From positions 1 through 64,000 of the forward strand of contig JAPPJY010000095.1 of the NCBI GenBank assembly GCA_028874335.1: a DNA stretch of 64,000 bases, given 5' to 3'. Origin of the DNA: Gemmatimonadota bacterium. Lineage in GTDB: Bacteria; Latescibacterota; UBA2968; GCA-2709665. Shown in pieces: positions 1-56,639 of the stretch. Each line of letters starts with the position of its first letter. Position 1 is the first letter of the stretch. The notes beneath the pieces are model-generated. The model worked only from the letters and a program-made list of their open reading frames with translations. It searched no databases and was not told the origin of the DNA. A program made the translations under genes and the position numbers.

Positions 1-119
1 GCCCATATTTAATGTATCGTGGCTGCGCGCCCCTCGCCACTCTTGGGTGGGTTTGACCAACGCCGACCGGCGCTTTTGCAGCCGCGCGAAGACCGCTGGG
101 AATTTTAAGACAGCTTCTT
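1..119. repeat. Truncated copy 1 (long subtype) of dispersed terminal-inverted-repeat element family A
   Basis: Contains ...gggtttgaccaacgccgaccggcgcttttgcagccgcgcgaagaccgctgggaattttaagacagcttct, the reverse complement of the start of copies at 54088 and 60711; left end cut by the window. Confidence 0.8.
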
Positions 120-2097
120 AAATGAAGATTCTGTTTCCGATCGTTCCCGAAAAGTAGTCCACGATGCACCACACGCCAGCGCCGGTGGCCTCTCCCAGTA
201 TTATTCCGATGAAGAGCGGCCGGGTCCTCCGGTACAGCGTCGCCCCTCCGAATTTCAACACGGTCGCTTTCATCCACCAGGCCAAGAAGACACTGAAGAA
301 ATAGGTATCCGTGTACCAGATCGTACTCAATGGAAGCGCAACCGGGTGCAGAGGCCACCACCTGAGACGCATCCTCAGCAGGGTCAACAGACCTGCAATA
401 CCCATCCCGAGTCCGGTATAAAGCATGCCTTTCGTGAAAACGGGACTCGGCTCCAGCATGCGCGTCCCCACAAAGGCATCGAACGGGATCCGCGAATAAT
501 CACGGAAGTGCCGGTCCAGATTCAGACCGCCCCGCGCATAGCCCAGATCCAGCGTCATCGCGCTTGCGGTAACCAGTCCAACCCCCATCGCCGCGCCCAT
601 CGCCCAGATCAGGCCGCGCTTGCGCCTCATCCCCCTCGACAGCCACAGCGCCCCGAGGGCGCGGGGCATCACGTTGCTGACCCGCGTCATCGTCCAGGCG
701 TAACCGAACCCCAGCGTCACCAGCCCCGCCGGGCCGAAGGCCGACGAACCCGTTGCGCAGACCACGAACTCAGCCGGGTTGATGGGCGAATAGGTGGCTA
801 TGAATCCCGTCTCGCTCACAATCCGCGCAAGAACGAAAAACACCACGATACAAGAGAAGAACAGAAACAGGATCAGAGCGAGAGACATTCCCGCCTGGTA
901 CAACCAGCACCCAAGATATACCAGGCCCCCAAGGGTTCCGAAGACCGCGGCACGGTAGGAGATGACTTCACCGGAATCGTCGGCGGTTGACGACGTCCTG
1001 AACGCCCTGGTAAAGACCCCGCGCAGGTGGGCCCGCGCCGTCCACGCGCTGTACGCGGCCAGCACCAGCATGTATCCCATCCCTGTCAGCGCGAGAAACG
1101 ACGACCCGCGGGAACTGAACCGGCCGACCATACCCGAGACATCCGTATACTCCGCTCCGAAGACCGCCAGCGTCCCCCTGATGACCTTGGAGATGACGTT
1201 GAACACCCAGATGCTCAGGCTCACGTCCAGGTTCACAAAGTAGGAATACCCGAGAATTGCAAAGTGCATCCTCAGGGGTAACGGGGTCGTCCCCTGAAAA
1301 ATCCAGAGCATCGTCCCCATCTGGACCCGGGGCACCGTATGGAAATAGTGATTCAGACCATTGATCGTACCGATCAAAAGCGGGACGGCAAACCCCGCCC
1401 ACATCAATCGGTTCCTGAACAGCGGTCCCAGGCGCCCGGCATCCGTTTCCGTCATTTCCAGCGGCACCTGGAGAATCGGAAACGCGAACCGCTCGTGCTC
1501 CGACCACTGCCTCCGGAATATCACGGCGATGCATAACAACACTCCGAACAGCACCAAAAAAAACGACCCCCAACTTGCCAGGGGGGCCAGCCATGCCAGC
1601 CAGGGCAGGGGAACGCCGTGCGGAAGCCCCTCGTAGAATCCGCGCACCGCCTCGGCGTTACGGGGGGCCGTCCACGGCAGTATATGGGGCAGTACGGCTT
1701 CCAGGTCGGGGCGCTCCGGGGAAGCGTAGTAAGTTGCGCCAGTCAGAAAGGCGATCAGCCACTTGACCATCCACAGTGCCGGCATCGACACCAGAAGCAT
1801 CGAAAAAATGCACAGAAGCTCTCCACGTTTCAGGCGATGCGCCGGCTTCAGGACGACGTTGCAGAAAAGGATCAGTAAGAGAAAAACGAACAGGATGCCA
1901 CGGTCCACAAAATAGTAGTGGAGAGAGGTACCCTGGATCACCATACGGTTGTAGGGGATGACAACAGCCAGAAAGAGGCACAGAACGAGCCCGATCAGGA
2001 AGGCCCTGCCCGTCAGTCCGTCCCGTACCTCCTCACACACCCCGCTGCGTTCGCCAGGAGTCCCATCTCGAAGGCTCTCCGCCGGGAGGTCGGCCAT
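118..2097 (-). CDS. DUF6785/DUF6784-like polytopic membrane protein (paralog 1)
   Basis: 659-aa ORF, many hydrophobic segments; shares LTGRAFLIGLVLCLFL..YNRMVIQG....DRGILFVF and ARIVSETGFIATYSPINPAEFVVC with three other ORFs in the window. Confidence 0.85.
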   Translation of the reverse strand: MADLPAESLRDGTPGERSGVCEEVRDGLTGRAFLIGLVLCLFLAVVIPYNRMVIQGTSLHYYFVDRGILFVFLLLILFCNVVLKPAHRLKRGELLCIFSMLLVSMPALWMVKWLIAFLTGATYYASPERPDLEAVLPHILPWTAPRNAEAVRGFYEGLPHGVPLPWLAWLAPLASWGSFFLVLFGVLLCIAVIFRRQWSEHERFAFPILQVPLEMTETDAGRLGPLFRNRLMWAGFAVPLLIGTINGLNHYFHTVPRVQMGTMLWIFQGTTPLPLRMHFAILGYSYFVNLDVSLSIWVFNVISKVIRGTLAVFGAEYTDVSGMVGRFSSRGSSFLALTGMGYMLVLAAYSAWTARAHLRGVFTRAFRTSSTADDSGEVISYRAAVFGTLGGLVYLGCWLYQAGMSLALILFLFFSCIVVFFVLARIVSETGFIATYSPINPAEFVVCATGSSAFGPAGLVTLGFGYAWTMTRVSNVMPRALGALWLSRGMRRKRGLIWAMGAAMGVGLVTASAMTLDLGYARGGLNLDRHFRDYSRIPFDAFVGTRMLEPSPVFTKGMLYTGLGMGIAGLLTLLRMRLRWWPLHPVALPLSTIWYTDTYFFSVFLAWWMKATVLKFGGATLYRRTRPLFIGIILGEATGAGVWCIVDYFSGTIGNRIFI

Positions 2098-2963: not shown

Positions 2964-3842
2964 TCAGATTCCGATGCCGGCTTCGACGGGAGTTACCTTA
3001 CTCTCCTCGAGAACGGTCTGGATTTCATAGATTGATCCACTGCGCTCCGCAGGAGGAAGCGGTAGTCGGACAGGGGCGTCGACCATGCGCGGTTCCCGGG
3101 TGGGTTCCCCGCGGAGGATCTTTCCGTTGAATTCTTCCCAGGTAACAATGGGTTGGACCAGCGGAAAGGCATCTACCGCGCAATACATATATAGCAGAAG
3201 ACGCCGCGGCTTGCCGGATTTATTCGGGGCGGATGCGTGCAGCGTCCGGACGTGGTGGATAGAGATGCCGCCGGCCCTGATTTCGATCGGGACGGCGCCC
3301 TCACCGGTGAAGTCCGGCTCGGTAACCGCGCCGGCAAAACGGCCGTTGAGGTGGTGGTCGTGGATGCGCCCCTTGTGAGACCCCGGAATGACAAGAAGGC
3401 AGCCGTTTTCAATGGTCATATCGTCAATGGCGACGCCGACCGCGAGCAGGTCGTCGTTAGTATGGGGGTAGAACGCCCAGTCTTGGTGCCATTCCACGGG
3501 GCTGCCCACCTCCGCGGATTTCATGTTGAGCTTGTCTCCGTTGGTCCGTATACCGGGACCGATGAGCTGCGCGGTGATGTCCAGGATATTTCGGTGGCGC
3601 AGGCCCCGGGCGTACACGTCGTGGCTTCCGGACGGATTTACGAGGCGGCGCAACTGCGGGTTTTCCGGCGTATGGCCCGGTTCCAGATCGAATACGTCGG
3701 TGGTTTCGGTGACCTGCCGTGAAGCTTCGACAAACGCATCGGTGACCCGGCGAAGTTCCTCGACTTCCTCGTGTGAGAGGACGCCCTCCACACCCAGATA
3801 GCCGTTGGTGTGGTAGTAATCAATCTGTTCCTGAGAAAGCAT
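2964..3842 (-). CDS. phytanoyl-CoA dioxygenase (PhyH) family protein
   Basis: 292 aa; VEWHQDWAFYPHTNDD (HxD) and CLLVIPGSHKGRIHDHH..; distal His in HHVRTLHASAPNKS. Confidence 0.9.
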   Translation of the reverse strand: MLSQEQIDYYHTNGYLGVEGVLSHEEVEELRRVTDAFVEASRQVTETTDVFDLEPGHTPENPQLRRLVNPSGSHDVYARGLRHRNILDITAQLIGPGIRTNGDKLNMKSAEVGSPVEWHQDWAFYPHTNDDLLAVGVAIDDMTIENGCLLVIPGSHKGRIHDHHLNGRFAGAVTEPDFTGEGAVPIEIRAGGISIHHVRTLHASAPNKSGKPRRLLLYMYCAVDAFPLVQPIVTWEEFNGKILRGEPTREPRMVDAPVRLPLPPAERSGSIYEIQTVLEESKVTPVEAGIGI

Positions 3843-3899
3843 GGGTATGACTCCTCTTGGATGAAGTGATCGGTCCGTCAGCGCTGGACGTGCGACGCA

Positions 3900-5879
3900 T
3901 TACAGAAGGAACATATTGCCGACCTTTCCGGTGGCAAAGTCGATGAGGCTCCACGTGCCCAGGCAGACCGCCTCGCCCAGGATGATCCCGATAAAGAACG
4001 GCCTGGTCTTGCGATAGAGGGTCGCCCCGCCGAACTTCATTACCAGCGCCTTGATCCCCCATGCCAGAAAGATACTGAAATAATAGTGTTCTGTCATCCA
4101 TATCGTGCTTACGGGCAGGGCGATCGGGTGAATGGGCCACCATGACAGGCGCGTTCGCAGGACCATGAGCAGCGCGGCAAGGCCCAGCCCCAGGCCGGTA
4201 TATACGAATCCGCGGTAGAACACCGGGCTGGGATCCAGCAGCCGGCGTCCCACGTATTCGTCGAACGGCAACGCGGCGTCGTTCACGTCGCGGAACCAGT
4301 AGTCGAGGTTCCGGCCTCCGTGTGCGTAGCCGAGATCCAGCGTCGTGTGGCTGGCGACAACCAGCCCCACGGCCAGGGCGGCGCCCATCGCCCAGATCAG
4401 TCCCTGCGTCCGTCCCATTTCCCGCGCCAGCCTGAGCGCCGCGGATGCGCGGGGCATCAGCGTGTTCAGCCGTGTCATCGACCACACGTAACCCACGCCT
4501 GCGGTTACCAGACCGGTGGGACCGAACGCCGACGAACCGACCGCGCATACGACGAACTCCGACGGGTTCAACGGCGAATAGGTCGCGGCATAACCGGTTT
4601 CGCTGACGATTCTGGCAAGGACGAGAAAGACGACAAAGGAGGCGATGAACAGGAGTGCGATTACATGCGGCGGCAGTCCCGCCTGGTAGAGCCAGCATCC
4701 AAGATACAGCGTGCCCATCAAGACACAGGCCACCGCCGTCCGATAGGGTAGCACCTCCTCCGAATCGACGAGACGAGACGGGCGTCCCAGAACCTTCGTC
4801 CAGACGGCTTTCAGGTGGCCCCGGGCAATCCACAGGCTGTACCCGGCCAGCGCCAGCATATACCCCATGCCCATGAACGCCAGGAACTCCGACCCCTGGG
4901 AGCTGTGCCGCCCCACCATCCCGGATACGCCGTAGCGTTCCGCGCCCAGCATTGCAGACACGCCGTTTATGCACTTGGCGATAACGTTCAGGAGCCAGAT
5001 GCTGAGACTCACGTCCAGGTTCACGAAATAAGCATAACCCAGCAGGGCGAAGTTGAGCCTGATTGACATCGGAATCGCGCGCCGGAAGATCCAGATCACC
5101 GCGCGCAGGCTTATCCGGGGCAGTGTGTGGTAATAGCTGTGCAGCGCGTTCATCGAACCGATGGCGAACGGAATCGCAAACCCCGACCACATCATCCGGC
5201 CGCGGAACAGCGGTCCGATCCAACCGTCGCCGCGCTCGCCCATCGCTAGAGGAACCTGCATGATGGGGAAGGCGAATCGCTCGTGCTCCTCCCACTGTTT
5301 TCTGAGGATCACCGCCACACAGCCCAGCACCACGAACAGCGCGACCAGGAACGAGCCCCAGCTCCACAGAGGGACCACCCACGCCCACCAGGGCACGGAA
5401 CCGCCCTTCGGCAATCCTTCGTACAGCCATCTGACGGGCTCGGCGTCCAGCACCGCGAGCCACGGCAGGGAGTAGGGCAGGACAGCCTCCAGGTGCCGCA
5501 TCTCCGGAGACGCATAGTAGGTTACGCCCGTCATGAACCCGAGCAATGCCTTGGTCATCGCCCACGCCGGCATCAGGAGCAACAGCATTGCATAGATGGC
5601 CATCAACTCGCCCCGGCCCAGGGCGTAGCGGCGTTTCAGCAGACCGAGCAGCGGGTTGAGCAGTACGGCCAGACAGAAAAAGAGAAAAAGCACGCCCCGG
5701 TCCAGAAAGTACCAGCCCATAAAGGGGCCCTGGACCACCATCCTGTTGTATGTCAGCCAGATTCCAAGAAGAGCGCACAGTCCGAGGCCGATCAGGAACG
5801 CCCGGGGCGACAACCCGTCTTTCGCATTCGCGTCCGGTATCCCGAAATCCTGCGCGCCCGTTCGGGGACTCAATGCCAT
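3900..5879 (-). CDS. DUF6785/DUF6784-like polytopic membrane protein (paralog 2)
   Basis: 659 aa, homologous along its length to ORFs at 118, 8182 and 48337. Confidence 0.85.
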   Translation of the reverse strand: MALSPRTGAQDFGIPDANAKDGLSPRAFLIGLGLCALLGIWLTYNRMVVQGPFMGWYFLDRGVLFLFFCLAVLLNPLLGLLKRRYALGRGELMAIYAMLLLLMPAWAMTKALLGFMTGVTYYASPEMRHLEAVLPYSLPWLAVLDAEPVRWLYEGLPKGGSVPWWAWVVPLWSWGSFLVALFVVLGCVAVILRKQWEEHERFAFPIMQVPLAMGERGDGWIGPLFRGRMMWSGFAIPFAIGSMNALHSYYHTLPRISLRAVIWIFRRAIPMSIRLNFALLGYAYFVNLDVSLSIWLLNVIAKCINGVSAMLGAERYGVSGMVGRHSSQGSEFLAFMGMGYMLALAGYSLWIARGHLKAVWTKVLGRPSRLVDSEEVLPYRTAVACVLMGTLYLGCWLYQAGLPPHVIALLFIASFVVFLVLARIVSETGYAATYSPLNPSEFVVCAVGSSAFGPTGLVTAGVGYVWSMTRLNTLMPRASAALRLAREMGRTQGLIWAMGAALAVGLVVASHTTLDLGYAHGGRNLDYWFRDVNDAALPFDEYVGRRLLDPSPVFYRGFVYTGLGLGLAALLMVLRTRLSWWPIHPIALPVSTIWMTEHYYFSIFLAWGIKALVMKFGGATLYRKTRPFFIGIILGEAVCLGTWSLIDFATGKVGNMFLL

Positions 5880-5916
5880 CTTCCCGCCACCTCCATACCG
5901 TCATGGGAAAACGCTC

Positions 5917-6079
5917 AGAAGCTGTTTTAAAATTCCTGGTGAGTCCCGAGCGCGAGCGAAAATGTGTCGGTCAAGGCGGGCAAATCCGCCCATATTTGCC
6001 TATACGGGTGGGTTTGCCCAACGCAGACCGACGCTTTTGCAGCCGCGCGAAGACCGCTGGGGGTTTTAATACAGCTTCT
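5917..6079. repeat. Copy 2 (short subtype, ~163 bp) of element family A with terminal inverted repeats
   Basis: Begins agaagctgttttaaaattcc and ends ggttttaatacagcttct; internal block matches copies 1, 3 and 4. Confidence 0.85.
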
Positions 6080-8100
6080 CAGCCTTCCATCCTTACGTGG
6101 ATCGCCAGGACGTCGCAATCGCCGGGAATATCCAGCGGTATCCGTATCGTTCCGTCTTTCGCCGATATCACGCGGTCATTCCAGTTCGCGCCGGACCAGA
6201 TCTCGACTACGTCTCGCGCGCTTTTTCCTTCGGGAAGGACGATCTCCAGCGCCGTCTCGCTCCTTACAGGGGTATATGGAAACACGATGGCCAGGAGTGA
6301 ATCGCTGTTTTTGACCATCGGGAGCAACTCGATGGTGGGCACGGCCCGCCGGTCGGTCGGCCGCAGTGTTCGGTATTCGTCCACGGGTGGAAAGGGAGTC
6401 AGCCGCGCCAGGGGCCGTCGGTCGGCCGCCCAGAGGATCAATCTCCTCAGCAACGCCACGTTGGACGTCACCTCCAGAAAGGACATTCCTGGAACACTGC
6501 CGGTATATTTCACGGCAGGCATGCCCGCCAGCCAGGCCTCGCGCCGGGACCCCTCTTCAACCAGCACCAGGGCCGGCCGGCCATCCACGGTCCCCAGCAC
6601 CTGCCCGTCCGGATACCCGCCGTCCACCCGGGTCGTCAGGATTACGGGATGTTCCAGTCCCTCCGTAAGCGGATGGTTGTGCAAGAGATCGACTTCAAAG
6701 ATGCCCGACTCAATCTCCCATGGCAGCTTGCATGCGCCATTCCCTGCCCACGGAGCGGCCGGCCGGTTGCCGATCCACAGGAGCCCCTCTCCACGTTCCG
6801 CAACCGCGTTGACAACGTCGAGCTGGGACTGCGTGAGGCAATGCACCTCGGGGAGGATGACCGGGCCGCTCAGCTGATCGCCCGCGTCGTCCAGCCGCTG
6901 GTCCCAGAACCAGCGCCATGGCAGGCCGGTACGATAGACCATATCTACAATAGGGAGCAACCCATGATGTCCCCAGTTGGACTCGTAGTGGCCGGTGATC
7001 TCGGACTGCTGGGGCATGATCATCGTGGCGAAGCCGTAGGGGCGGTGGGACGCGAACATTGGCATGAGTCGCCGGGTTTCGTCGAAGGCCTCGAAATATC
7101 CGGGGATGATCTTCATCTGCTCGTAAGTGAACGGCATCACCAGATCCGCGCCGAGCGCAAACGGCACCACGCCGGCCAGCAGGCCGTCCTGCCGGCCCAT
7201 CGGAACGGCCTGCTCCGGCGGCATGAAGCCCTGCGGATAGATATCCACCTGCCGGTCCATACACGCGCCCATCAGGCTTCTGGTCGTCTCCGAAAGGATC
7301 CTGCGGTGGGGGCGGTGCAGGATGAGATCGTCGTGATTGAAATGATACGGGTCCGTCGCGATAACGTCCTGTGAACGCGCGTCGCGTGCGAGGCGGATGG
7401 CGGTCTGCCAGGCATTGTAGTTCCGCTCGGGGATGGCGGGACTGTGCTGGATGCCCACAGTCACGTCGGGACGGACGTCTTTGATGGCGCTTCGAAGCTC
7501 TGAGTGCACCGCCTCCCAGTTTTCAAAGCGGCACTCCAGCCATTTATACCACAACGGGTCATCCCAATCCGCAGCCCGGGGAGGCTTGACGCCGGTCCGT
7601 TCGCGGAATTCAGCCTCGCAGAAGCCGCAGTAACAGCCGATGGTTCCGTCTCCGAACCCGAGACACGCCTCGTCATTCAGGTGGATTTCACGTGTCGCCC
7701 GCCATTGGCAGATTTCCATAAGAAGGGACAGGTAGTGGGTCTTGTTTTCGGGGCGAAAAGGACACAACCAGCGGACCGGCAGTCCGTCCAGATCCAGCAC
7801 ATCGCCATCGCCGGCCATGTGCATCAGCCGGTGGGGTTCTTTCGCCACCAGACGTTCCTGATACTTGATGTACCCGGTGAAGGCGATGAATCCCAGGTCC
7901 CGTTCCTCACACATCCGGGCAAGCGCCTCCGACTGCGCCAGCGAAAACCCCTGCTGTTTTACCGCGGGTGTGACCGCCACCCCCGCACCCACGTCGGTGA
8001 ATCCTTCGCTGACAATCCGGTCGAGCGTCGACTCGTTCAGCACGACGTCAGGAAAGAGCAACAGCGCCGCGCGGCGGAGTTTCCGGTCAGGTTCCGGCAT
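6079..8100 (-). CDS. TIM-barrel glycosidase-like protein (GH-A/GH42-like), paralog 1
   Basis: 673 aa; REIHLNDEACLGFGDGTIGCYCGFCEAEF resembles acid/base and Cys-rich region of GH42-like proteins; paralogous to 13121 and 37896. Confidence 0.65.
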   Translation of the reverse strand: MPEPDRKLRRAALLLFPDVVLNESTLDRIVSEGFTDVGAGVAVTPAVKQQGFSLAQSEALARMCEERDLGFIAFTGYIKYQERLVAKEPHRLMHMAGDGDVLDLDGLPVRWLCPFRPENKTHYLSLLMEICQWRATREIHLNDEACLGFGDGTIGCYCGFCEAEFRERTGVKPPRAADWDDPLWYKWLECRFENWEAVHSELRSAIKDVRPDVTVGIQHSPAIPERNYNAWQTAIRLARDARSQDVIATDPYHFNHDDLILHRPHRRILSETTRSLMGACMDRQVDIYPQGFMPPEQAVPMGRQDGLLAGVVPFALGADLVMPFTYEQMKIIPGYFEAFDETRRLMPMFASHRPYGFATMIMPQQSEITGHYESNWGHHGLLPIVDMVYRTGLPWRWFWDQRLDDAGDQLSGPVILPEVHCLTQSQLDVVNAVAERGEGLLWIGNRPAAPWAGNGACKLPWEIESGIFEVDLLHNHPLTEGLEHPVILTTRVDGGYPDGQVLGTVDGRPALVLVEEGSRREAWLAGMPAVKYTGSVPGMSFLEVTSNVALLRRLILWAADRRPLARLTPFPPVDEYRTLRPTDRRAVPTIELLPMVKNSDSLLAIVFPYTPVRSETALEIVLPEGKSARDVVEIWSGANWNDRVISAKDGTIRIPLDIPGDCDVLAIHVRMEG

Positions 8101-8181
8101 CGGGTTCTCCCTCCATTTATATCGTGGCGACGATTCAGCAATCTGCGGCGCCCGTCTGCTTGCGCACCGTGGATTCGTTAC

Positions 8182-10197
8182 TCACGACGAGCTCCAATAG
8201 CCCATGAACGGCCAGGTTTTCAGCCGTCCCGTAAAGGCGCTTGCCACCGACCAGCCTCCCGAGCACATGACCTCGCCCAGGATCATCCCGATAAAGAACG
8301 GTCGCGCCTTCCTGTAGAGGTCCGCCCCACCCACCCGGAGGATGATCGCCTTGATTCCCCATGCCAGGAACACGCTGAATCCGAACCAGTCCATGTACCA
8401 CACCGTACTGAGCGGGAGCGCTGCAGGATGGAACGGCCACCACGGCAGACGCATCCTGAGCAGGATAAGCAGGGCGGCAATCGCTGTGCCCATGGCCGTA
8501 TAGAGGAAACCCATCGTGAAGACCGGGCTGGGCTCCAGCAGCCGGCGTCCGATAAACTCGTCGAACGGCGAAGCCGCGTCGTTCACGTTGCTGAACCACG
8601 GATAGTCGATGTTCACGCCGCCGTGCGTATACCCCAGATTCAACGTCGTGTAGCCCGTAGCCACCAGCCCGACGGTCAACGCGGCCCCCATTGCCCAGAC
8701 CAGGCCGCGCTTCCTTCCGATTTCGCGTGCCAGCCGAAGAGCCCCCATGGCGTGTGGCATCAGCGTATTTCTGCGCGTCATCGTCCACACGTAGCTCATT
8801 CCGAGCGTGGCCAGACCCACCGGACCGAACGCTGACGAGCCCACCGCGCATACCACGAACTCGGACGGATTGAGGGGAGAATAGGTCGCGACAAATCCCG
8901 TTTCACTCACAATCCGAGCCATCACAAAGAAGACGATGAGACTGGAAACAAGAAGAAACAGAACCAGCGGCGGCGAAATTCCAGCCTGGTAGAGCCACAA
9001 TCCGAGGTAACTCACGCCCAGAACAATGCCAAGCACGGCCGACCGGTAAGACACGATTTCGTCCGAGTCCCGCAGGTGCGACGCACGGCCGCGGACCTGT
9101 GCCAATACCTGCCGGAGGTGACCCCTGGCAACGTAGAGGCTGTACGCGGCCAGCGCGAGGATATACCCCATCCCCATCAACGCCAGAAACTCGGATCCCT
9201 GGGAACTGTAACGTCCCACGACTCCGGACACCCCCCAGGTCTGGCCCGCGCCCACCATCGCCAGCGCGCCGCGAATCACCTCTGTGACCAGGTTGATGAC
9301 CCACAGGCTGAGACTCACGTCCAGATTGATGAAGTAGGAATATGCGAGTACAAGGAAATGGACCTTGAAAGGCAGCACCATCGTCCGCCGGAAGATTCGA
9401 ACGTGTGTCCCCAGGTTGATAACGGGAATGTATGGAAAGTAATACCGGAGCCCCCGAAGGGTGCCGACCAGAGACGGGAGCGCAAACCCGGCGGCCAGCA
9501 GACGGCTGCGGAACACGGGGGCGATCCGGCCCTTTCCGGGCTCCAGCATCGCAAGCGGCACCTGCATCAGGGGGAACGCGAACCGCTCGTGTTCCTCCCA
9601 TTGCCTGCGCATCAGCACCCCCAGGCAAATGAGCACAATGAAGAGCACGATAAGGAACGACCCCCAGCTCCAAAGCGGCAGGACCCATCCCATCCACGGA
9701 ATTGTACCCCCTTTTGGCAGGCCTTCGTAGAGGTCCTTGACGACACCTTCCCCCTGAGGAACCAGCCATGGCAGCATGTTGGGGGGAACGACCTCGATGT
9801 GACGCAGCTCCGGCGTCGCGTGGTACGTGACGCCGGTCGTGTAGAGGATAACCGGCTTGGTCATCACCCACGCGGGCAGGAGAATGAGAAACATGGTGTA
9901 GATGGCGAGCAATTCGCCCCGCGTCAGGGCGAACCGGTTCCTGATCGCGCCCAGGAGCGGGTTGACGGCCAGGACAAGGAGGAACAGGACGATGAGCGCG
10001 CCCCGGTCCATGTAGTACCCGCCGCCAATGAACGAGCCCTGGGTGATCATGCGGTTGTAGGTGAGGCCAACGCACATGAGTACGCACAGGACGAGGCCGA
10101 TACCGAACGCGCGCGGCGTCAGGCCGTCGCGCGCGTCAGATTCTCTGCCAGGCGATGGAGTGGGGGGGTTCGTGGCTCTCGCGGCCGTGGTTTCCAA
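8182..10197 (-). CDS. DUF6785/DUF6784-like polytopic membrane protein (paralog 3)
   Basis: 671 aa; same conserved blocks (VMARIVSETGFVATYSPLNPSEFVVCAVGSSAFGP). Confidence 0.85.
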   Translation of the reverse strand: METTAARATNPPTPSPGRESDARDGLTPRAFGIGLVLCVLMCVGLTYNRMITQGSFIGGGYYMDRGALIVLFLLVLAVNPLLGAIRNRFALTRGELLAIYTMFLILLPAWVMTKPVILYTTGVTYHATPELRHIEVVPPNMLPWLVPQGEGVVKDLYEGLPKGGTIPWMGWVLPLWSWGSFLIVLFIVLICLGVLMRRQWEEHERFAFPLMQVPLAMLEPGKGRIAPVFRSRLLAAGFALPSLVGTLRGLRYYFPYIPVINLGTHVRIFRRTMVLPFKVHFLVLAYSYFINLDVSLSLWVINLVTEVIRGALAMVGAGQTWGVSGVVGRYSSQGSEFLALMGMGYILALAAYSLYVARGHLRQVLAQVRGRASHLRDSDEIVSYRSAVLGIVLGVSYLGLWLYQAGISPPLVLFLLVSSLIVFFVMARIVSETGFVATYSPLNPSEFVVCAVGSSAFGPVGLATLGMSYVWTMTRRNTLMPHAMGALRLAREIGRKRGLVWAMGAALTVGLVATGYTTLNLGYTHGGVNIDYPWFSNVNDAASPFDEFIGRRLLEPSPVFTMGFLYTAMGTAIAALLILLRMRLPWWPFHPAALPLSTVWYMDWFGFSVFLAWGIKAIILRVGGADLYRKARPFFIGMILGEVMCSGGWSVASAFTGRLKTWPFMGYWSSS

Positions 10198-10233: not shown

Positions 10234-11028
10234 CTACAGCGTCCCGGGAGTCAGGGCTCCCTCTCCGAAGATGACCGAGAAGTTCGCTCCCGTTTCGGAT
10301 CTGGTGGCGGCGTCCATGTAGCAGACGCTGAAGCCGCGCCGGGAAGCCTCGGTTTTGTTCATCCCGGATCCGTGGAGCAGCCAGTTGTGCAGCAGGGCCG
10401 CTTCGCCGGCCTCCATCTCCAGGTATTCGTGCCTCTCCCTTGCCAGAACGACGGCGGCCTGCTCGTCGGTCAGAAAGGCGAAGCTGGCGGACTCATCTTG
10501 ATCGAAGGTCGCGCGATGGGATCGCGGCACAATTCCCACGCAGCCGTTCTCGACCGTCACCTGGTCGAGCGCCGTCCAGACGGTCACGATCGGATCGGTG
10601 TCGAGGATGCTGAACCGGTCCTGGTGCCAGGGCAGGTGCGTGCCCTTCCCCGCCGGCTTGTTCATGAACATCGCACGGTAGCAGGATATCGGCGTCTCCG
10701 GACCGTAGGCCCTCGCGCAGATCTCGCGGAAAACAGGTTTCTGCATGTAGGACAGGAACAGCGAATCGAACTCCAGGTCCTGGATCTTTCGATAGTTCAA
10801 CGTTGAGACCCGGTGACCTCTCGTGGTGATCCGCTTCTCCGAGTAGTCGCCCGACTCGCTGTCAAGCTGCATGAACATCTGGTCGTAGACCTTGACGTTT
10901 CCAAGCATGATGTCGTCGATGCGCTGCTGCAGGCCAGTAAGTTCGTCATCGTCCATTACCTTTCCAAGCCGAAGAAATCCTTCGTTCTCGAACAGGGCCC
11001 ACTGTTCGTCAGTGATCCCCGCAACCAT
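10234..11028 (-). CDS. phytanoyl-CoA dioxygenase (PhyH) family protein
   Basis: 264 aa; HLPWHQDRFSILD (HxD), NGCVGIVPRSHRATF, ALLHNWLLHGSGMNKTEASRRGFSV. Confidence 0.9.
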   Translation of the reverse strand: MVAGITDEQWALFENEGFLRLGKVMDDDELTGLQQRIDDIMLGNVKVYDQMFMQLDSESGDYSEKRITTRGHRVSTLNYRKIQDLEFDSLFLSYMQKPVFREICARAYGPETPISCYRAMFMNKPAGKGTHLPWHQDRFSILDTDPIVTVWTALDQVTVENGCVGIVPRSHRATFDQDESASFAFLTDEQAAVVLARERHEYLEMEAGEAALLHNWLLHGSGMNKTEASRRGFSVCYMDAATRSETGANFSVIFGEGALTPGTL

Positions 11029-11079: not shown

Positions 11080-12240
11080 CTACTGATCGACCACCGAGCC
11101 GTCGACGTGCAGTCTGGTGACCATCATGCCCTCATCCAGCAGCGGCCGGTGTGAAAGAAACGGGTATTTTTCCGCGGCGCCTTCCGCGAGTTCCACGCCG
11201 ATACCGGGGGTATCCGGGATGATCAGGAATCCGTCATCCAGCGCCAGAACGCCGGACACGATCTCGCTCTTCGGGGGTTCACCTTCGCCCCGCGGGTACT
11301 CCTGCAGTGCGAAATTGGGAATGCAGGCGGCAAGCTGAACGCACGCGGCCGTACTCACCGGGCTGAGCGGATTGTGCGGTACCACGTCCACGTAGTGCGC
11401 CTCGGCGAGGGCCGCGATCTTCTTGCAATGAGTGATGCCGCCCGCCATGCAGACGTCCGGCCTTACGTACTGGACCGCGTTGCGCGTCAGGAGCATTTCG
11501 AACTCATAGATGGTGTGAATTCGTTCCCCGGTGGCGATAGGAATCGCGATCTTTTGCGCGACTTCGGCCATGGCGTCGAGGTTGTCCGGGCGGATGGGAT
11601 CCTCGTAGAAGAACGGGCGATAGGGTTCGATCGCCCTTCCCAGCACGATCGCCTCGGCCGGGTCCAGCCGGCGGTGGATTTCAATGCACAGGTCCACCTC
11701 GTCGCCAACCGCTTCCCGGTACGCGGCCACGGTCTGAACCGCATCCTGCATCTTGTCCGTATGGGTCTTGTAATAGGGTACATTTCGGGACTCGTCCAGA
11801 AACGGCGTCAGGTGGCCCACCGCGGTAAATCCCTCCGCCTTTGCCTGCACGCAGCCCTTGAGAAGCTCCTCCTTGGTGCTCCCGATCACGTGCCCGTACA
11901 CCCGGGCCTTGTCCCGGCATTTGCCGCCCAGCAACTGGTAGACCGGCACCCCGAAGTACTTGCCCGCGATATCCCAGAGGGCGATGTCCACCGCGCTCAG
12001 GGCGCCCATGATTGCCGCGCCGCGGAAGTGCGTACACCGGTACAGGACCTGCCAGTGGTGTTCGATACGCAGGGGGTCCTTCCCGATCAGGTATTCCCTG
12101 AAACTCTTCACCACCTCGCCCGAGGCCTCCAGGTATCCCCAGGCACCCGATTCACCCAGCCCCGTGATCCCCTCATCCGTATGGACCTCCACAAAGAGAT
12201 ACCGGTCGATCGGCAGGACCTTAACGTCCGTGATTTTCAT
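11080..12240 (-). CDS. mandelate racemase/muconate lactonizing enzyme family (enolase superfamily), galactonate dehydratase-like
   Basis: 386 aa; MKITDVKVLPID..FVEVHTDEGITGLGE, SAVDIALWDIAGKYFGVPVYQLLGG, IATGERIHT. Confidence 0.9.
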   Translation of the reverse strand: MKITDVKVLPIDRYLFVEVHTDEGITGLGESGAWGYLEASGEVVKSFREYLIGKDPLRIEHHWQVLYRCTHFRGAAIMGALSAVDIALWDIAGKYFGVPVYQLLGGKCRDKARVYGHVIGSTKEELLKGCVQAKAEGFTAVGHLTPFLDESRNVPYYKTHTDKMQDAVQTVAAYREAVGDEVDLCIEIHRRLDPAEAIVLGRAIEPYRPFFYEDPIRPDNLDAMAEVAQKIAIPIATGERIHTIYEFEMLLTRNAVQYVRPDVCMAGGITHCKKIAALAEAHYVDVVPHNPLSPVSTAACVQLAACIPNFALQEYPRGEGEPPKSEIVSGVLALDDGFLIIPDTPGIGVELAEGAAEKYPFLSHRPLLDEGMMVTRLHVDGSVVDQ

Positions 12241-13120: not shown

Positions 13121-15223
13121 TCACACCGACGCCAGGAACAAGGCGTACACCTTGAGGAAGTCCTCGGTGGTCAGATTGACGTCGATTTCCACCGCCTTTT
13201 CGTGCTGTCTGACGTCCTCCAGCGGTTGATCCGACACCAGTTCGCGAACCCCGGCGCAGTGCTTGCCGTCGGGCAGCCTGGCTTCGATCCGGAATGCGCC
13301 GGGTTCTCTGAAATACGACGGCACCGTCACCAGGATCAGGTCTTCGCCCACCGAAGGCATGATCTCCATGGTCGGCTTCCAGCGGATGTCCAGCGGTCTG
13401 ACGTCCTGCAGCGGCACCCTCGGCGGAAAGCCCTTTGCGACCACGGGCAGCCTGTCTCCCACAAGCGACAGAATCAATTGCGCCACCACCTGGCGGGAAA
13501 AGCTGAGGACGGTGGTACCCTCCGGCCTTTGGTCCACCCACCTGGACGGGATGCCCGCCACGAACACGCCGTTACCCCTTCCGAAGCGTTTCAACGTCAT
13601 CGCCGGTCGTGACGTCGGGGAACCCTCTTCCTCGTACACCGCCAGCACGTCCGTCTCACCCTCCGTTTCTACCTCTACCGCGAGATCCAGTCCAAGAACC
13701 GGGCGGTTCCTGCCCTTCCAGGGGTCCCACGCGGTTCGTTCATCCGGCCACGGGAGGTTGTTGAACGCCTCGTGGTCGGCGACGGCCTGGAAGATGCGGG
13801 TACCCCCTGCCGGTGTACACGACGAAATCCCGAATGCCTCGCAGAGAAAGGACCCGTTGAGCGGGCGACCCAACTCGTCCCTCGTGGCCGTCTCACCCAT
13901 CGCGACCAGCGTACCGCCTTCGCGCACGTACGCCAGGAGCGCGTCACGCTGGCCGGCTGACAGACACGAGGCATTGGGCAGCACCACAACCGGATAGCGA
14001 TCGAGGTACTTGGGAACCAGCTTCGACGAAGGCAGATACCCGTGTGAAAGACCGAAGTGAGCGGCCATCTGGCCCGTGGAAAACATCCGATTCATGCGCC
14101 AGTTCTCACGGCCCCGTGCGGGCAGCGACTCGTCGTGACACTGCGTTTCCAGGCTGTCCACCACGGCAACGGAGACCACGGGTTCGGTGCGCTCGAAGTA
14201 CGGGTCCAGGCGAAACGCCTCCTGAAAGGTCCGGTGCATCGGAGACACCCGCTGGAGCCGGTAGGTATAGGCCGTCACGCGATCTACGCCCAGAGCCGGC
14301 GGGACCACGGCCTGCCACCATCCGTCCCGTTCGTCCAGAGGCCGGTGGAACTCCGGGTGCGACATGCCCTGCCCCAGCATCACGCTCACCTTGTCATCTC
14401 CCAGCGTAAAGCCCTGAAGGAATCGGCAGCACTCGCTAAGGAAAGTTTCGGGAGGTGTAAACAACCCGCTTCCCACGGACGGCAACACGCATGTGTAGTA
14501 GGCATCCACGGCCAGACCGTCTATGGCTTCGACCATACCGTCGATGTCCATGCCGCAGACCCATGGGTTGATGTCCCAGAAGGGATGCGGGCCGCTCTGA
14601 AATACCGCGCGGACCCTGTGATCCCGGTTCAGGGCTGTCTTCATCTTTCCGTGCACGTCGTTCCAGCGCCTGAACCGCCAGGTAACCAGACGCGTCTTTT
14701 CATCCAGGTTCCTGAACGGCGGCATGGGGATCCTCCCGCCGAATTCGCCGTCCCAGTCTTCCTGGCAGGTCCGGCAATAGCACGCGATCAGATCCACGTC
14801 TCTGCCGAAATACGCTTCGTCATTTACCCAGACTTCCGTGAGATTCGGAATACCGCCCAATCGTTCCAGAAAGTCCATATATCGCTTTTGAAACACCCGG
14901 TTGTACGGACATCCCCATACGGCCGGCAGGTTACCCAGTTCCTCGTGGTCCGCATCCTTGCTGAAAACGGCTTTCTGTTCGGGGTGCTCGGCCAGGTGCT
15001 GGTAGGCGTATTTCATGAATCCGGTGAACGTGGAGACCTCGAGGCCGTATTCCGCTGCTCTCCCGGCCACCTCTTCTACGGCTGCTTCGTGGCCGATAAC
15101 GGCCGCCACGGTAACCTCGTGGTAGCCCAGCTCCGCTACTTCCGGAATCTCGTCCACAAGCGACTCGGGCCGGTTCCGATAGTCCTGCAGGAAAGCGATC
15201 CGCTGAATCTTCCGCTTTTTCAT
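13121..15223 (-). CDS. TIM-barrel glycosidase-like protein, paralog 2
   Basis: 700 aa; LTEVWVNDEAYFGRDVDLIACYCRTCQEDW and YPVVVLPNASCLSAGQRDALLAYVREGGTLV (beta-galactosidase trimerisation-like region). Confidence 0.65.
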   Translation of the reverse strand: MKKRKIQRIAFLQDYRNRPESLVDEIPEVAELGYHEVTVAAVIGHEAAVEEVAGRAAEYGLEVSTFTGFMKYAYQHLAEHPEQKAVFSKDADHEELGNLPAVWGCPYNRVFQKRYMDFLERLGGIPNLTEVWVNDEAYFGRDVDLIACYCRTCQEDWDGEFGGRIPMPPFRNLDEKTRLVTWRFRRWNDVHGKMKTALNRDHRVRAVFQSGPHPFWDINPWVCGMDIDGMVEAIDGLAVDAYYTCVLPSVGSGLFTPPETFLSECCRFLQGFTLGDDKVSVMLGQGMSHPEFHRPLDERDGWWQAVVPPALGVDRVTAYTYRLQRVSPMHRTFQEAFRLDPYFERTEPVVSVAVVDSLETQCHDESLPARGRENWRMNRMFSTGQMAAHFGLSHGYLPSSKLVPKYLDRYPVVVLPNASCLSAGQRDALLAYVREGGTLVAMGETATRDELGRPLNGSFLCEAFGISSCTPAGGTRIFQAVADHEAFNNLPWPDERTAWDPWKGRNRPVLGLDLAVEVETEGETDVLAVYEEEGSPTSRPAMTLKRFGRGNGVFVAGIPSRWVDQRPEGTTVLSFSRQVVAQLILSLVGDRLPVVAKGFPPRVPLQDVRPLDIRWKPTMEIMPSVGEDLILVTVPSYFREPGAFRIEARLPDGKHCAGVRELVSDQPLEDVRQHEKAVEIDVNLTTEDFLKVYALFLASV

Positions 15224-37895: not shown

Positions 37896-39929
37896 CTATC
37901 GCCACGTCAGTTCCACGGCCAGGTATTCGGTCTGATTCGACATTCTGACGGGCATAACGACCTCGCTGCCGTTGATTTCGGAGACGGCGAGCGCGTCGGC
38001 TCCCGTGAAAATGTCGGTCAATGACAGAATCCGCGCGCCTTCTGGCGCGCGCATCACGAGATTCGTCCGGTAGGCCAGCCCCACGTAATTGAAGATGAGG
38101 CAGACAAGGCAGCCGTCGCCGATCATCGGAAACAACTCCATAGTCGGCACGTCCCGGCGGTCCCACGGCCGCAAATTCCGGTAGGCGTTGTCGGGCGGGT
38201 AGGGTGCGAGGCGGGCGACCGGTTCGTCCCGCGCCAGCCATTTCAGGATATTCCTCAGCAGGGGTATGCCGTCCGTGGGCGTCCGGACGCCGCCGTGGTC
38301 GCCGCGCGTCACGTAGCTGAACTCGGGGACCCCAGCCAGCCAGACCTGTCGGCCGCCGTTTTCCTCGTTCACCACCAGCGCCGGCCTCCCGTCGATCTCG
38401 CTCACTGTCTCCCCTTCGATTCCCGGTTCGGAAAACGCGGACTGCAGCATGACGGGGTGCGAAATGCCCTCCAGGAAAGGATGGTCCCGTCCTGCGGGCC
38501 GCATTTCCGCGCTGTCGATGGATATCCCCTGCGGCGGCGGACTCGGCCCGCTGCCCGGCCAGTCCCGGTTCGGAGTCCGCCCCACCCAGAGCAGACCGTT
38601 GCCCGATGCTGCATGCGACTGCAGTACGGCCTCCTGTTCTCGGGTCAGGCAGTGGGTATCCGGCAGAATCGCCGGCCCTTCCAGCGCCTCCCCGGCATCC
38701 GCGAGGCGACCGTCGAAGTGCCAGCGCCACGGCAGGCCCACGTGGTTCATCACGTCGGGCCAGACCGCCAGCGCCTTCCGGGCCCAGCCGGTTTCCGGAT
38801 GCCCGTAGATTTCCGTCTGCGTGGGATTGATGACGGTCGCGGACGCGCAGGGTTTCGTCTTCTCGAAACAGGGAATGAGCTTCCCCGCCTCGTGGAATCC
38901 GTCCAGAAATCCGGGAAGGATGCGGGCGAGATCGTTGGAATACGGCGTAATGTTGTCCGCGCCGAGCGCGTAGGGAACCGCGCCGGCCATGAAACCGTCT
39001 CTGCTGGTCAACTCCGGCCCGCCCAGGGGCGGCCTGAAAGCCTGCGGATAGATATTCATCGAACGCCCGACCGTGGCGCCGGCCAGCGTCCGGGTCGCCT
39101 CGGTCAGGATCCGGCGCGCGGGCCGATAGGTGAAATGCGACGTATGGTTGTAGTGGTAGGGATCCGTACAGAGCACGTCCTGGGCCAGCGCGTCCTGCGA
39201 GAGATCGATCCCCGCGCGCCAGATGTTGTCGTTGAAGGATACGACCACCGGCGAATACTGAATGCCGACCAGGACGTCCGGGCGCTCCTTCCTGATCTGC
39301 TCGCGGAACCAGGCATGGACTTCGGTCCACCGCGCCATCCTGCGCTGCACCCACGCCCACCACGCATCCGAGTCCCAATCGAAGTCCGAAGGCGGCGCCG
39401 AGCCGTATTCCCTTTCGTATTCGGATACGCAGTGGTCGCAATAGCAGCCGATGTCGCCGTTTGCGAACCCGATCGCGGCTTCGTCGTTGAGGTGAATCTC
39501 CCGGAGCGCGGGCAGCCCGATCACTTTCCTCAGGAGATCGAGGTATTCCGCTTTGTTCTCCGGCTGAAACGGGCACAGCCATTTGGTGCGTACCAGGTTG
39601 TCGCTGTCCAGCGCGGTACCCGAACCGCCGACGCAAACCATGGCCCGCTCCGGATACTCGCGCAAGAACGTCTCCCGGTACTTCATATAGCCGGTGAATA
39701 CGGTCATCCCCAGGCCGAATTCCTGTGCCCACGCGCCGAAGTGACCCACCTGCTCCCAGTCAAATCCCTGGCCCGTGAATTTCCGCTCGCCCGCTTTCAG
39801 TGAGACGCCGATATCCGTGAACCCCTCGCTCCGGACTCGCGCCACGTGGTCGCGGGAATAGCTCACCTTCTGGATGTTCAGAAGCGCCGTACGGCGAATC
39901 GTTCGTTTCATTCGATTTCCTCGCGACAC
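37896..39929 (-). CDS. TIM-barrel glycosidase-like protein, paralog 3
   Basis: 677 aa; LREIHLNDEAAIGFANGDIGCYCDHCVSEYEREYG; collinear with 6079-8100. Confidence 0.65.
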   Translation of the reverse strand: MSRGNRMKRTIRRTALLNIQKVSYSRDHVARVRSEGFTDIGVSLKAGERKFTGQGFDWEQVGHFGAWAQEFGLGMTVFTGYMKYRETFLREYPERAMVCVGGSGTALDSDNLVRTKWLCPFQPENKAEYLDLLRKVIGLPALREIHLNDEAAIGFANGDIGCYCDHCVSEYEREYGSAPPSDFDWDSDAWWAWVQRRMARWTEVHAWFREQIRKERPDVLVGIQYSPVVVSFNDNIWRAGIDLSQDALAQDVLCTDPYHYNHTSHFTYRPARRILTEATRTLAGATVGRSMNIYPQAFRPPLGGPELTSRDGFMAGAVPYALGADNITPYSNDLARILPGFLDGFHEAGKLIPCFEKTKPCASATVINPTQTEIYGHPETGWARKALAVWPDVMNHVGLPWRWHFDGRLADAGEALEGPAILPDTHCLTREQEAVLQSHAASGNGLLWVGRTPNRDWPGSGPSPPPQGISIDSAEMRPAGRDHPFLEGISHPVMLQSAFSEPGIEGETVSEIDGRPALVVNEENGGRQVWLAGVPEFSYVTRGDHGGVRTPTDGIPLLRNILKWLARDEPVARLAPYPPDNAYRNLRPWDRRDVPTMELFPMIGDGCLVCLIFNYVGLAYRTNLVMRAPEGARILSLTDIFTGADALAVSEINGSEVVMPVRMSNQTEYLAVELTWR

Positions 39930-39932
39930 CGG

Positions 39933-40919
39933 TCAGGATAATCCTTTGTGGCGCCGCACGTTGAGAGCCTTCCATTCAAGAAGCGGCTGGGATTGGATGC
40001 GACTCTGTAGGGATCTATCGTCGGTTAATATCGACGCATCGATCTCGCCTTGTTCCAGCAGAAGATCGAGAAATGCGAGCTCGGCGTCAGTAAAGGGCAG
40101 CACCGCTGAAATCCCCAGCCGGCATTCTTTGACCAGCATCTCCCCGTAGGTCGTCGCTTCCCGGGAGCCCTGTATCGAACCCACGTGGAGCGACGGCACA
40201 AGCTGGCTGGCCAACTCTGCAACGTCCAGATCCACGTCCGCGACCGAAATCCCGCGCCAGTCTTTACGGTCCATGGCGCCATAGACGACGAAAGCGATTC
40301 TGAGTCGATTGCGGTCGAGATCTTCCATGGAGAAGATCAGACGGCTGTCGAACAGGTCCCTCGCCCTGCGGCGCGCCAGCAGCGCGGAGAGCTTCCCTGC
40401 CGCGAGCTCATGAATGTCCATCACGGGGATGTCCGTGACCTGCCAGCTTCCAAGCGATCGGGAATCCATCTTGGTAATGGGCCACAAGGGAACGCGGTAC
40501 ATGAAGTTGATATCCACGTCGAGATTGCCGCTCACCCCGGATGCGCTCTGATAGCGGAGCAACCATTTCCCGCCGGCGTGTTCTTCAGGCATCCGCCTGA
40601 CTGTGAAATCCTCTCGACGGAACACGTCCTGTACCGCTTTTTCGATCCTGGGACGCTCCTCCAGCATGGCGTCCCGTTGCCGGGTCCCCACGTAGTTCAA
40701 ATCTATGTCGACCGAAAGTCTGGGGACGTCGAAGACGAAGAGGTTCAAAGCCGTCCCGCCCTTGAGGACCAGCTTACCCTTGAGGAAGGGGTGACTGTGC
40801 AAGGCCTCGAGCAGTTCGAGCAGTCGGACCGCCTTTTCCAGCATGTCGGCTCGAAATTTCGTCGCTTCGGCTTCGGCGGCCAGCTTCTCGGGGGAGATTC
40901 TCAAAGGACCTCCGCCCAC
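39933..40919 (-). CDS. abiEii: AbiEii/AbiGii family nucleotidyltransferase toxin
   Basis: 328 aa; LVLKGGTALNLFVFDVPRLSVDIDLNYVG (GGTALN...DIDL). Confidence 0.9.
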   Translation of the reverse strand: MGGGPLRISPEKLAAEAEATKFRADMLEKAVRLLELLEALHSHPFLKGKLVLKGGTALNLFVFDVPRLSVDIDLNYVGTRQRDAMLEERPRIEKAVQDVFRREDFTVRRMPEEHAGGKWLLRYQSASGVSGNLDVDINFMYRVPLWPITKMDSRSLGSWQVTDIPVMDIHELAAGKLSALLARRRARDLFDSRLIFSMEDLDRNRLRIAFVVYGAMDRKDWRGISVADVDLDVAELASQLVPSLHVGSIQGSREATTYGEMLVKECRLGISAVLPFTDAELAFLDLLLEQGEIDASILTDDRSLQSRIQSQPLLEWKALNVRRHKGLS

Positions 40920-41716
40920 GACCGTTCCATTACGTCATCCGGTACCACCAGGTTCCAGTTCGCCACGAGGCATCCGGATCTCCGTCTGGCGCGGTCCAGG
41001 TAATGGGGCTGAAGGGGGCGCCGGTCACGAAGCGGCCTTAGATGACGCTCGTCGATCATCAAGGCGTCACGATGCTGATCCAGGAAGAAGCCCACCTTCG
41101 CGATTGTCGTCGCATTCCCAAGCAGGAGCGCATACGCCACGACCTGGTCGACGTTGAAGAATTCCACCGATTCCAACGACCGCCAGATTTCCTCCCAGCC
41201 TCCCGCCAGGTCCGGACGATGCAGCACGTCCACGAGCGTCCGCTCCAAACTCGTGGCACGCATCGCAACACCCAAACGTTCCGTGTTCAGAACGCCAAAG
41301 TGCTCCGCACCCTGGCGGAGAAGCGCTTCGGGAAACCTGACGCCCCGGTAGACTTGAGACCGAAACACAAGCGTATCCACCGGACGGGATGCGGAATAAA
41401 CCAGGTGGCGCCAGACCGAATACGCCCGACCATAAAACTCAAGCGCCGTGTGATGTGATACGACAGCATCGCCTGTCAGTCTGGCGGCGATCAGGTAGGG
41501 GTCCACCGGGTAGGAATCGGGGTCAGCTCCCGGCGGTATGACCGCGTACAGACCGCGCCGCACTCGAATGACCCGGCCGGTTTTCCGGTAATAGGCCAGA
41601 AACGCTTCCTTTCCTCTTGTCCCGCCCCCCCCTCGGCGGGCGAGGTGCGTGGCTAGCGTCTCTCCGGTGAAGACCGGATGCAGGCGAAGAAACGCCTCGT
41701 GTTTTACGACGGGCAT
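40901..41716 (-). CDS. abiEi: AbiEi family type IV antitoxin
   Basis: 271 aa; FLAYYRKTGRVIRVRRGLYAVIPPGADPDSYPVDPYLIAARLTGDAVVSHHTALEFYG; overlaps AbiEii by 19 bp. Confidence 0.9.
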   Translation of the reverse strand: MPVVKHEAFLRLHPVFTGETLATHLARRGGGGTRGKEAFLAYYRKTGRVIRVRRGLYAVIPPGADPDSYPVDPYLIAARLTGDAVVSHHTALEFYGRAYSVWRHLVYSASRPVDTLVFRSQVYRGVRFPEALLRQGAEHFGVLNTERLGVAMRATSLERTLVDVLHRPDLAGGWEEIWRSLESVEFFNVDQVVAYALLLGNATTIAKVGFFLDQHRDALMIDERHLRPLRDRRPLQPHYLDRARRRSGCLVANWNLVVPDDVMERSWAEVL

Positions 41717-46360: not shown

Positions 46361-47314
46361 TCATTCCCCCCGAGGTCGGTACCTCGGCGTAAACGCCCGT
46401 CCATAGAACAGCGGCATCAACTCATGCGGTACCTGGTCGGTCTGCCCCAGCGACGCCATCTGGCCGAACTCGTAGTCGGAATGGACCAGCCGCGAAAGCA
46501 TGATAAGCCGTTCCTTATCCGTCTCGATGTTGATGGTGCGGTGCATCAGCGGACCGTCGGCGAACAGCAGCGCAGACCCCCGCCTGGCCGTGGTCTGATG
46601 GAAGAACTCGGAATCCGGATGGTCCGTGATATACTGCTTCAAATCGTCGTACGAGAGGTCGAGTCTGTGACTTCCCGCGAAGATCCCGGTTCCGCCGTCG
46701 CCCGGGCCCACGTCTGTGAGATAGAGGATCAAACCGAGGATCTGCGTATGGAACCAGCCATTCTTGCGGACCGCCCGGTCCTTGTGTCGCGTGACCCCGC
46801 CGTGCCATCCCAGGACCGGGGTATCGGAACGCCGGTTGAAGCGGACGGCGACCTGATGGAACCGGAACGTCCCGCCCAGCAGTTCGGTCGCGATCCCCAG
46901 GACGCGCGGCCTGGTCAGCACTGACAGGTAGACGGGGTCCAGCCCCAGCACGTTCTCAATCTCAAGACGTTCCAGGTGAAGCTCGCCCGAAGCGGTCCTT
47001 CTCCGGTTCGCCCGCCAGATCGCCCCGTTCCTGAAGTCCTCGTATTTTCTGGGCGGCGGAGGCGGCGTGATCTCGTTGTCGCCGGCCGCGTCCAGGATTT
47101 CCGCCTTCAATTTGCTGGCTGACGCTTCTATGGACTGCAACTCCGGCTCGGTAAACAGGTCTTCGACGATGGTGTACCCGAAGAGCTCGAATCGCATCCG
47201 CTGTTCCAGCGTCAGGGCAGGGAATGGATAGTCGAATTCCGTTTGCGGCACATCCGAGAATCCGAACCCGGGATTCGGCGCGGAATATCTGGTTTTCGTC
47301 GCTATCTCGGCCAT
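46361..47314 (-). CDS. phytanoyl-CoA dioxygenase (PhyH) family protein
   Basis: ~317 aa from ATG 47314; RRSDTPVLGWHGG..., GGTGIFAGSHRLDLSYDDL, RRGSALLFADGPLMHRTINIETDKERL. Confidence 0.8.
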   Translation of the reverse strand: MAEIATKTRYSAPNPGFGFSDVPQTEFDYPFPALTLEQRMRFELFGYTIVEDLFTEPELQSIEASASKLKAEILDAAGDNEITPPPPPRKYEDFRNGAIWRANRRRTASGELHLERLEIENVLGLDPVYLSVLTRPRVLGIATELLGGTFRFHQVAVRFNRRSDTPVLGWHGGVTRHKDRAVRKNGWFHTQILGLILYLTDVGPGDGGTGIFAGSHRLDLSYDDLKQYITDHPDSEFFHQTTARRGSALLFADGPLMHRTINIETDKERLIMLSRLVHSDYEFGQMASLGQTDQVPHELMPLFYGRAFTPRYRPRGE

Positions 47315-48283: not shown

Positions 48284-48336
48284 AAACGTAGCGTCTCCGT
48301 TAGATTTGACGGCACGCAAGCCGCCCGTCCCCGTGC

Positions 48337-56573: not shown

Positions 56574-56639
56574 TTCCTTGACCTCCTCAAAGATGACCAA
56601 TGAGTTCCGTCCATCCGTCTCCGGAAGGGCTCACTCACT

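Follow-up and report, generated by a model that had tools for sequence, protein, structure and literature searches.

Duplicated DUF6785 membrane proteins with a predicted OPT/YSL fold in a lineage-specific catabolic island with accessory PhyH dioxygenases

To our knowledge, OPT proteins carry peptides, glutathione, folates or metal chelates, and not sugars. Among the members with solved structures is barley YS1 (HvYS1; PDB 7wsr/7wst; OPT, PF03169), which imports Fe(III)-phytosiderophores by a proton-coupled, elevator-type mechanism (PMC9691689). The PhyH family of Fe(II)/2OG dioxygenases is known to be expanded in Poribacteria (Kamke et al., 2014; PMC3909097), and two further described systems, the polysaccharide utilisation loci of Bacteroidota and the GH42 β-galactosidases, offer themselves for comparison with the locus described here. 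This locus lies in a Latescibacterota-type genome of 5.43 Mb in 96 contigs, which holds 22 DUF6785 and 76 PhyH genes; the window that we analysed is the first 64 kb (64,000 nucleotides) of its contig C71 (85 kb). By analogy with the sponge Latescibacterota of the literature (PMC12993501, PMC8163846), the host may be sponge-associated. In the literature searched, we found no paper naming the DUF6785/DUF6784 family and no description of a DUF6785-PhyH linkage.

The minus-strand operon at the start of the contig runs in the order 11080 (dehydratase), 10234 (PhyH), 8182 (DUF6785), 6079 (GH42-like), 3900 (DUF6785), 2964 (PhyH), 118 (DUF6785), with 11080 as the probable first gene (Table 1). Its intergenic gaps are 36–199 bp (51 bp between 11080 and 10234), with the exception of 866 bp between 2964 and 118, and in relatives it continues past the point where our contig ends, with an amidohydrolase, a 570-residue protein and a hexapeptide protein. 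The original prediction had placed four DUF6785-like genes at 118, 3900, 8182 and 48337, and PhyH genes directly downstream of 3900 and 48337 (2964 and 47459) and directly upstream of 8182 (10234). All of this held: the membrane proteins match Pfam DUF6785+DUF6784 at E 7e-99 to 4e-110, the PhyHs match their own Pfam model, and all of the genes are on the minus strand, so that the downstream and upstream relations are as had been described. Likewise, a glycosidase-like gene, 6079, does lie directly downstream of 8182, and the others, 13121 and 37896, turned out to be its paralogues (26–41% identity). As listed, the open reading frame of the PhyH at 47459 (47459-48583) runs into the DUF6785 gene; this PhyH probably starts at 48262. 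The stretch between 2964 and 118 (2098-2963) is low in GC (0.47) and contains, within 2174-2761 on the minus strand, a lipoprotein-like reading frame (MTRLLLIGLLVSGCAANR...); it had no match in the other sequences compared, and in two relatives (L024 and L025) the orthologues of 118 and 2964 are about 80 bp apart.

Table 1. Genes of the operon, the second cluster and the GH42-like family on contig C71, with the evidence for each.
Feature	Position	Strand	Evidence
DUF6785+DUF6784 membrane protein, clade A copy 1, OPT/YSL-like transporter (predicted)	118-2097	-	Pfam E 4e-110
PhyH-type Fe(II)/2OG dioxygenase, HxD at 119-121	2964-3842	-	Pfam E 5e-38
DUF6785+DUF6784 membrane protein, clade A copy 2, AlphaFold2-modelled	3900-5879	-	Pfam E 2e-102
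GH42-like two-domain enzyme: TIM barrel and trimerisation-like domain	6079-8100	-	GHL10 28.5 bits, cut-off 27.9
DUF6785+DUF6784 membrane protein, clade A copy 3	8182-10197	-	Pfam E 7e-99
PhyH-type Fe(II)/2OG dioxygenase, HxD at 135-137	10234-11028	-	Pfam E 6e-30
Galactonate-dehydratase-type enolase-superfamily enzyme	11080-12240	-	PRK14017 332 bits, cut-off 311
GH42-like paralogue of 6079	13121-15223	-	26% identity to 6079; Glyco_hydro_42M E 6e-8
GH42-like paralogue of 6079	37896-39911	-	41% identity to 6079; profile search of genome
PhyH-type protein	46361-47314	-	Pfam E 9e-8; 89% to L026 PhyH
PhyH-type Fe(II)/2OG dioxygenase directly downstream of fourth DUF6785	47459-48262	-	Pfam E 4e-18
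DUF6785+DUF6784 membrane protein, clade A copy 4	48337-50331	-	Pfam E 7e-107; 73% to 3900
GH130-like protein, upstream of 48337	50358-51380	-	partial profile match Glyco_hydro_130 E 6e-6, at cut-off
PorV/FadL-like outer-membrane barrel, second cluster	53101-54054	-	Pfam PorV E 6e-5, below cut-off; G007 homologue in same place, 58%
Secreted protein (probable), weak CHU_C/PorZ-like C-terminal match	54306-56600	-	G007 homologue 54%
SusC-like TonB-dependent receptor	56640-59705	-	Plug E 3e-11, CarbopepD_reg_2 E 2e-20; TIGR04056 61 bits, below cut-off
Fourth GH42-like paralogue of genome	G000:C71:65267-67279, just outside window		profile search of genome

The protein encoded at 3900 was modelled by AlphaFold2 with a pLDDT of 87.6 and a pTM of 0.89, and in a comparison of this model with the PDB the only protein below E 0.001 was barley YS1, found in two entries (E 9e-8 and 2e-7; probability 1.00, TM 0.64–0.71). 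A second model, of a copy 26% identical to 3900 (L030:7909-9963; pLDDT 83.4), again had barley YS1 as its sole match below E 0.001 (E 2e-7, probability 1.00, TM 0.55–0.63), and the next PDB match for both models was at E 0.04–0.06 with probability 0.11. Because two separate models of such distant copies lead to the same single match, DUF6785 very likely has the elevator-transporter fold of the OPT/YSL proteins. Common descent with the OPT proteins is probable and rests on this predicted fold, since a profile-profile comparison (hhalign, DUF6785 against eight OPT proteins, shallow profiles), which covered 332 columns, was not significant (P 0.08), and of 56 DUF6785 family members a single one reached even E 5.4 against Pfam OPT (PF03169). 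None of the window proteins matched that model at E 0.1; eight DUF6785 genes in relatives did so below its cut-off, at E 1e-4 to 9e-4 per genome, which lends the fold weak support from sequence. Sequence searches of the PDB with DUF6785 matched no solved structure. Like HvYS1, the DUF6785 proteins are many-helix membrane proteins of about 660 residues, with the predicted fold extending over the whole length. Unlike it, they are only about 13% identical to HvYS1, have no significant OPT profile match in the window, stand among diverse catabolic neighbours and are massively multicopy, with 22 genes in the host and as many as 50 in the genome of a relative. The fold assignment would make DUF6785, an unknown membrane family that is this abundant in uncultured bacteria, sponge symbionts included, a testable set of importers, and the operon of the window provides defined transporter candidates with catabolic neighbours. 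A third OPT-like group, found in two relatives (L100:994-3045 and L101:820-2877; Pfam OPT E 5e-13 and 7e-9), was missed by the DUF6785 profile and is weakly related to both the OPT and the DUF6785 groups.

The three glycosidase-like proteins of the window form one GH42-like family with invariant NDE and CYCxxC motifs; C113, C156, C158, C161 and N142-D143-E144 are the same in all nine sequences that were aligned, a comparison at the sequence level. Family profile A6 matched the β-galactosidase LacZ 9ta3 at E 4e-4 with the CYCxxC and NDE/NNE motifs aligned. At this level the family resembles the GH42 β-galactosidases in its Cys-rich CYCxxC, its NDE/NE motif, its trimerisation-domain match and the LacZ alignment, and differs from them in that the Pfam profile of the GH42 catalytic domain found no match (GHL10 or the trimerisation domain alone was matched), in an uncertain nucleophile position and in a very narrow distribution: it was present in 7 of 47 genomes of the class, and all four host copies are on contig C71. 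A sequence search of the PDB with 6079 found nothing. No signal peptide was obvious by eye in the GH42-like proteins or in the PhyH sequences, so both are presumably cytoplasmic and would act on an imported solute.

The wider island measures about 80 kb and includes all four GH42-like enzymes of the genome, the SusC-like receptor and a GntR regulator, together with GH113 (22568), a BNR propeller (36677), GH130-like genes, C45 acyltransferases and Ldh_2 on the same contig. The receptor has a homologue (54%) in a genome of another family, G007, with conserved gene order, and a single 15-kb run of that genome brings together homologues of the receptor and of its two companions with a clade-A DUF6785, a GH42-like gene, Ldh_2 and a C45 acyltransferase, which argues that this transporter clade is part of a shared catabolic cluster. 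The GH42-like enzyme tracks clade-A DUF6785 better than PhyH does, though not universally: in G063 a GH42-like gene stands without DUF6785 within the approximately 45 kb read, so that the link is not absolute. Compared with the polysaccharide utilisation loci of Bacteroidota, the island is similar in its SusC-like receptor, its several glycosidase-like genes and its GntR regulator, and dissimilar in that no SusD, and hence no SusC/SusD pair, was found among the window proteins scanned and that the inner-membrane step apparently falls to DUF6785 carriers. The island runs past the window, where the fourth GH42-like gene is followed by metallophosphatase, pectate-lyase-like and rhamnogalacturonan-lyase-like matches; a pair of AbiEii/AbiEi-type toxin-antitoxin genes lies inside it (39933-41716).

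We consider it fairly probable that DUF6785 is an undescribed large branch of the OPT/YSL fold, that one of its clades has been duplicated in a lineage-specific catabolic island importing a sugar-derived solute, and that PhyH is an accessory there. Gene order, conservation and the enzyme families are observations, to which the predicted fold of DUF6785 is added; from these we infer the direction and coupling of transport, the substrate and the order of reactions. In the best-supported route, a sugar-derived solute passes the receptor and a DUF6785 carrier and is then hydrolysed, oxidised and dehydrated. The SusC-like receptor, which the second cluster ties to the fourth DUF6785 copy, and the DUF6785 carriers would take in a small solute containing a sugar or sugar acid, with the DUF6785-DUF6784 proteins acting as elevator-type carriers of the inner membrane, probably proton-coupled importers. 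GH42-like enzymes would cleave the imported solute in the cytoplasm, the PhyH-type 2OG oxygenases may hydroxylate or dealkylate the solute or a breakdown product, and the dehydratase and other oxidoreductases would feed the product into central metabolism. Since the known OPT cargoes named above do not include sugars, the sugar step leans wholly on the neighbouring genes. A wider version, in which DUF6785 would be a separate, massively expanded bacterial OPT-fold branch that imports sugar-derived solutes and provides many specialised uptake pathways of Latescibacterota and neighbouring phyla with their inner-membrane step, is a tentative extension and, in our judgement, rather doubtful.

The main rival to a sugar-derived solute is a substrate of the kind that the known OPT carriers take, either peptide-like or a chelate. 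What the island imports and degrades would then be a conjugate resembling an amino acid or peptide, such as a metal-chelating compound or an amino acid with an acyl or glycosyl group, taken up in the manner of a classical OPT/YSL system, and PhyH would hydroxylate the amino acid or acyl moiety. Such a substrate would suit the predicted fold of DUF6785, the weak siderophore-receptor plug matches of the SusC-like receptor and several genes of the island, namely C45 acyltransferase/hydrolase genes (26571 and 32577), an S15 peptidase (28785) and a PLP enzyme resembling threonine synthase (51613), but a GH42-like and a galactonate-dehydratase-type enzyme are among the immediate neighbours of the transporters, and the GH113, GH130-like and BNR genes of the island also speak against it. 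We therefore regard a peptide-like or chelate substrate as possible but unlikely, and continue to favour the sugar-derived solute.

The original prediction had gone further, and took the repeated linkage within the window to suggest a functional unit of DUF6785, PhyH and glycosidase. In the host genome, 3 of the 22 DUF6785 genes stand immediately beside a PhyH and a fourth (118) is separated from one by the 866-bp gap, where gene order leads one to expect about 0.7 pairings (our arithmetic). The pairing thus exceeds chance in the host, but all of it falls inside this window and within one DUF6785 clade, and the remaining 18 copies have no PhyH inside 2.6 kb (the nearest is at 2.7 kb). The window's four copies (59–73% identical to each other), C62 and copies in relatives make up a single clade A (SH-aLRT 100), and so cannot be counted as four independent cases; when genes are duplicated locally within an island, the result can mimic a recurrent module. 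Chance levels for the relatives were taken from random non-overlapping placement and from gene order, a naive circular-shift test having been dropped because it permitted physical overlap and overestimated chance. In three relatives with complete, single-contig genomes (G037, G007 and G010), 10 of 133 DUF6785 copies (about 7.5%) had a PhyH within 1 kb among the matches listed, compared with 3.3 expected from placement and about 4.9 from gene order (our arithmetic), a 2–3 fold excess in which observed and expected values use the same lists. For G010, the count of PhyH within 800 bp by gene order was 6 against 2.5 expected, and that of the control, GFO_IDH_MocA, 2 against 1.7, again among the matches listed. 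Only 2 of 45 non-redundant DUF6785 copies outside the window had a PhyH within 1 kb, and a Pfam tally of 85 immediate DUF6785 neighbours, which are very diverse across genomes, revealed no partner that dominates (PhyH accounted for 5, of which three are in this window). Adjacency of DUF6785 and PhyH is a weak excess and no rule; the pairing is best read as a lineage-specific feature of one catabolic island and not as a general two-part system, and PhyH as a lineage-specific accessory and not an obligate partner of DUF6785. What stands of the functional unit is the membrane transport part, through the predicted OPT/YSL fold, and an operon kept in genus and family; the general linkage is not supported.

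The PhyH proteins themselves are diverse. Those at 2964, 10234 and 47459 have the domain above the cut-off, with an HxD...H metal triad and a distal Arg, and in 46361 the position of the triad is less clear (HKD at 177-179). The best solved relative is EvdO2 for 2964 (E 3.5e-18) and phytanoyl-CoA dioxygenase 2a1x for 10234 (E 5e-16). The Pfam matches above the cut-off with HxD plus distal His/Arg, and the host's total of 76 PhyH genes, recall the PhyH family as it is expanded in Poribacteria, from which the present case differs in its Latescibacterota-type host and in the three window PhyHs that directly adjoin DUF6785 genes. The partner PhyHs of the window are about 22–25% identical to each other, as against 59–73% for the DUF6785 proteins, so we rejected the idea that DUF6785 and PhyH were duplicated together as one cassette. 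In a tree of 57 PhyH rows the partners are scattered (13 label changes, where shuffles gave 14.2 and 129 of 500 were as low) and no dedicated subfamily of DUF6785 partners was found; the closest sister of 47459 is a non-adjacent PhyH of the same genome. A role in phosphonate metabolism was rejected at 49 bits against the methylphosphonate-hydroxylase cut-off of 500, and an ectoine role on curated cut-offs; nothing points to the phosphono-substituted or methylated substrates that had been suggested.

Lastly, relatives in the genus and the family of the host keep the operon. The pair 2964-3900 is kept in 4 of 4 relatives (L023, L024, L025 and L029), in all of which the orthologue of 118 is the last DUF6785 of the operon; 11080 is conserved in L023-L025, and the pair 10234-8182, with PhyH upstream, in five genomes of family f1. 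The PhyHs of L023 and L029 lie under opposite-strand open reading frames and were located by nucleotide and six-frame searches; at several loci of G010, PhyHs were taken from six-frame open reading frames. Separately, a PhyH of the 10234 type is linked to a different DUF6785, an arrangement kept in eight genomes of genus g13, and in both families it is upstream and on the same strand; one PhyH type became linked to DUF6785 at least twice independently, after which the linkage lasted within each clade. This double origin, the four local pairings, the short gaps that suggest co-transcription, the 2–3 fold excess in three complete genomes and the G010 count above its control all lend something to a recurrent unit that would accompany DUF6785 everywhere and act on unusual glycans, but over 90% of the DUF6785 copies lack an adjoining PhyH, the partner PhyHs are unrelated to each other, the operon persists where the 10234 orthologue is broken, and the window copies are a single clade, all of which makes such a unit improbable. 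The broken orthologues, apparently split or truncated in an operon that is retained, are L025:5014-5807 and G002:C25:51377-51967. In L026 the orthologue of 46361 directly adjoins DUF6785, with no 47459 in between.
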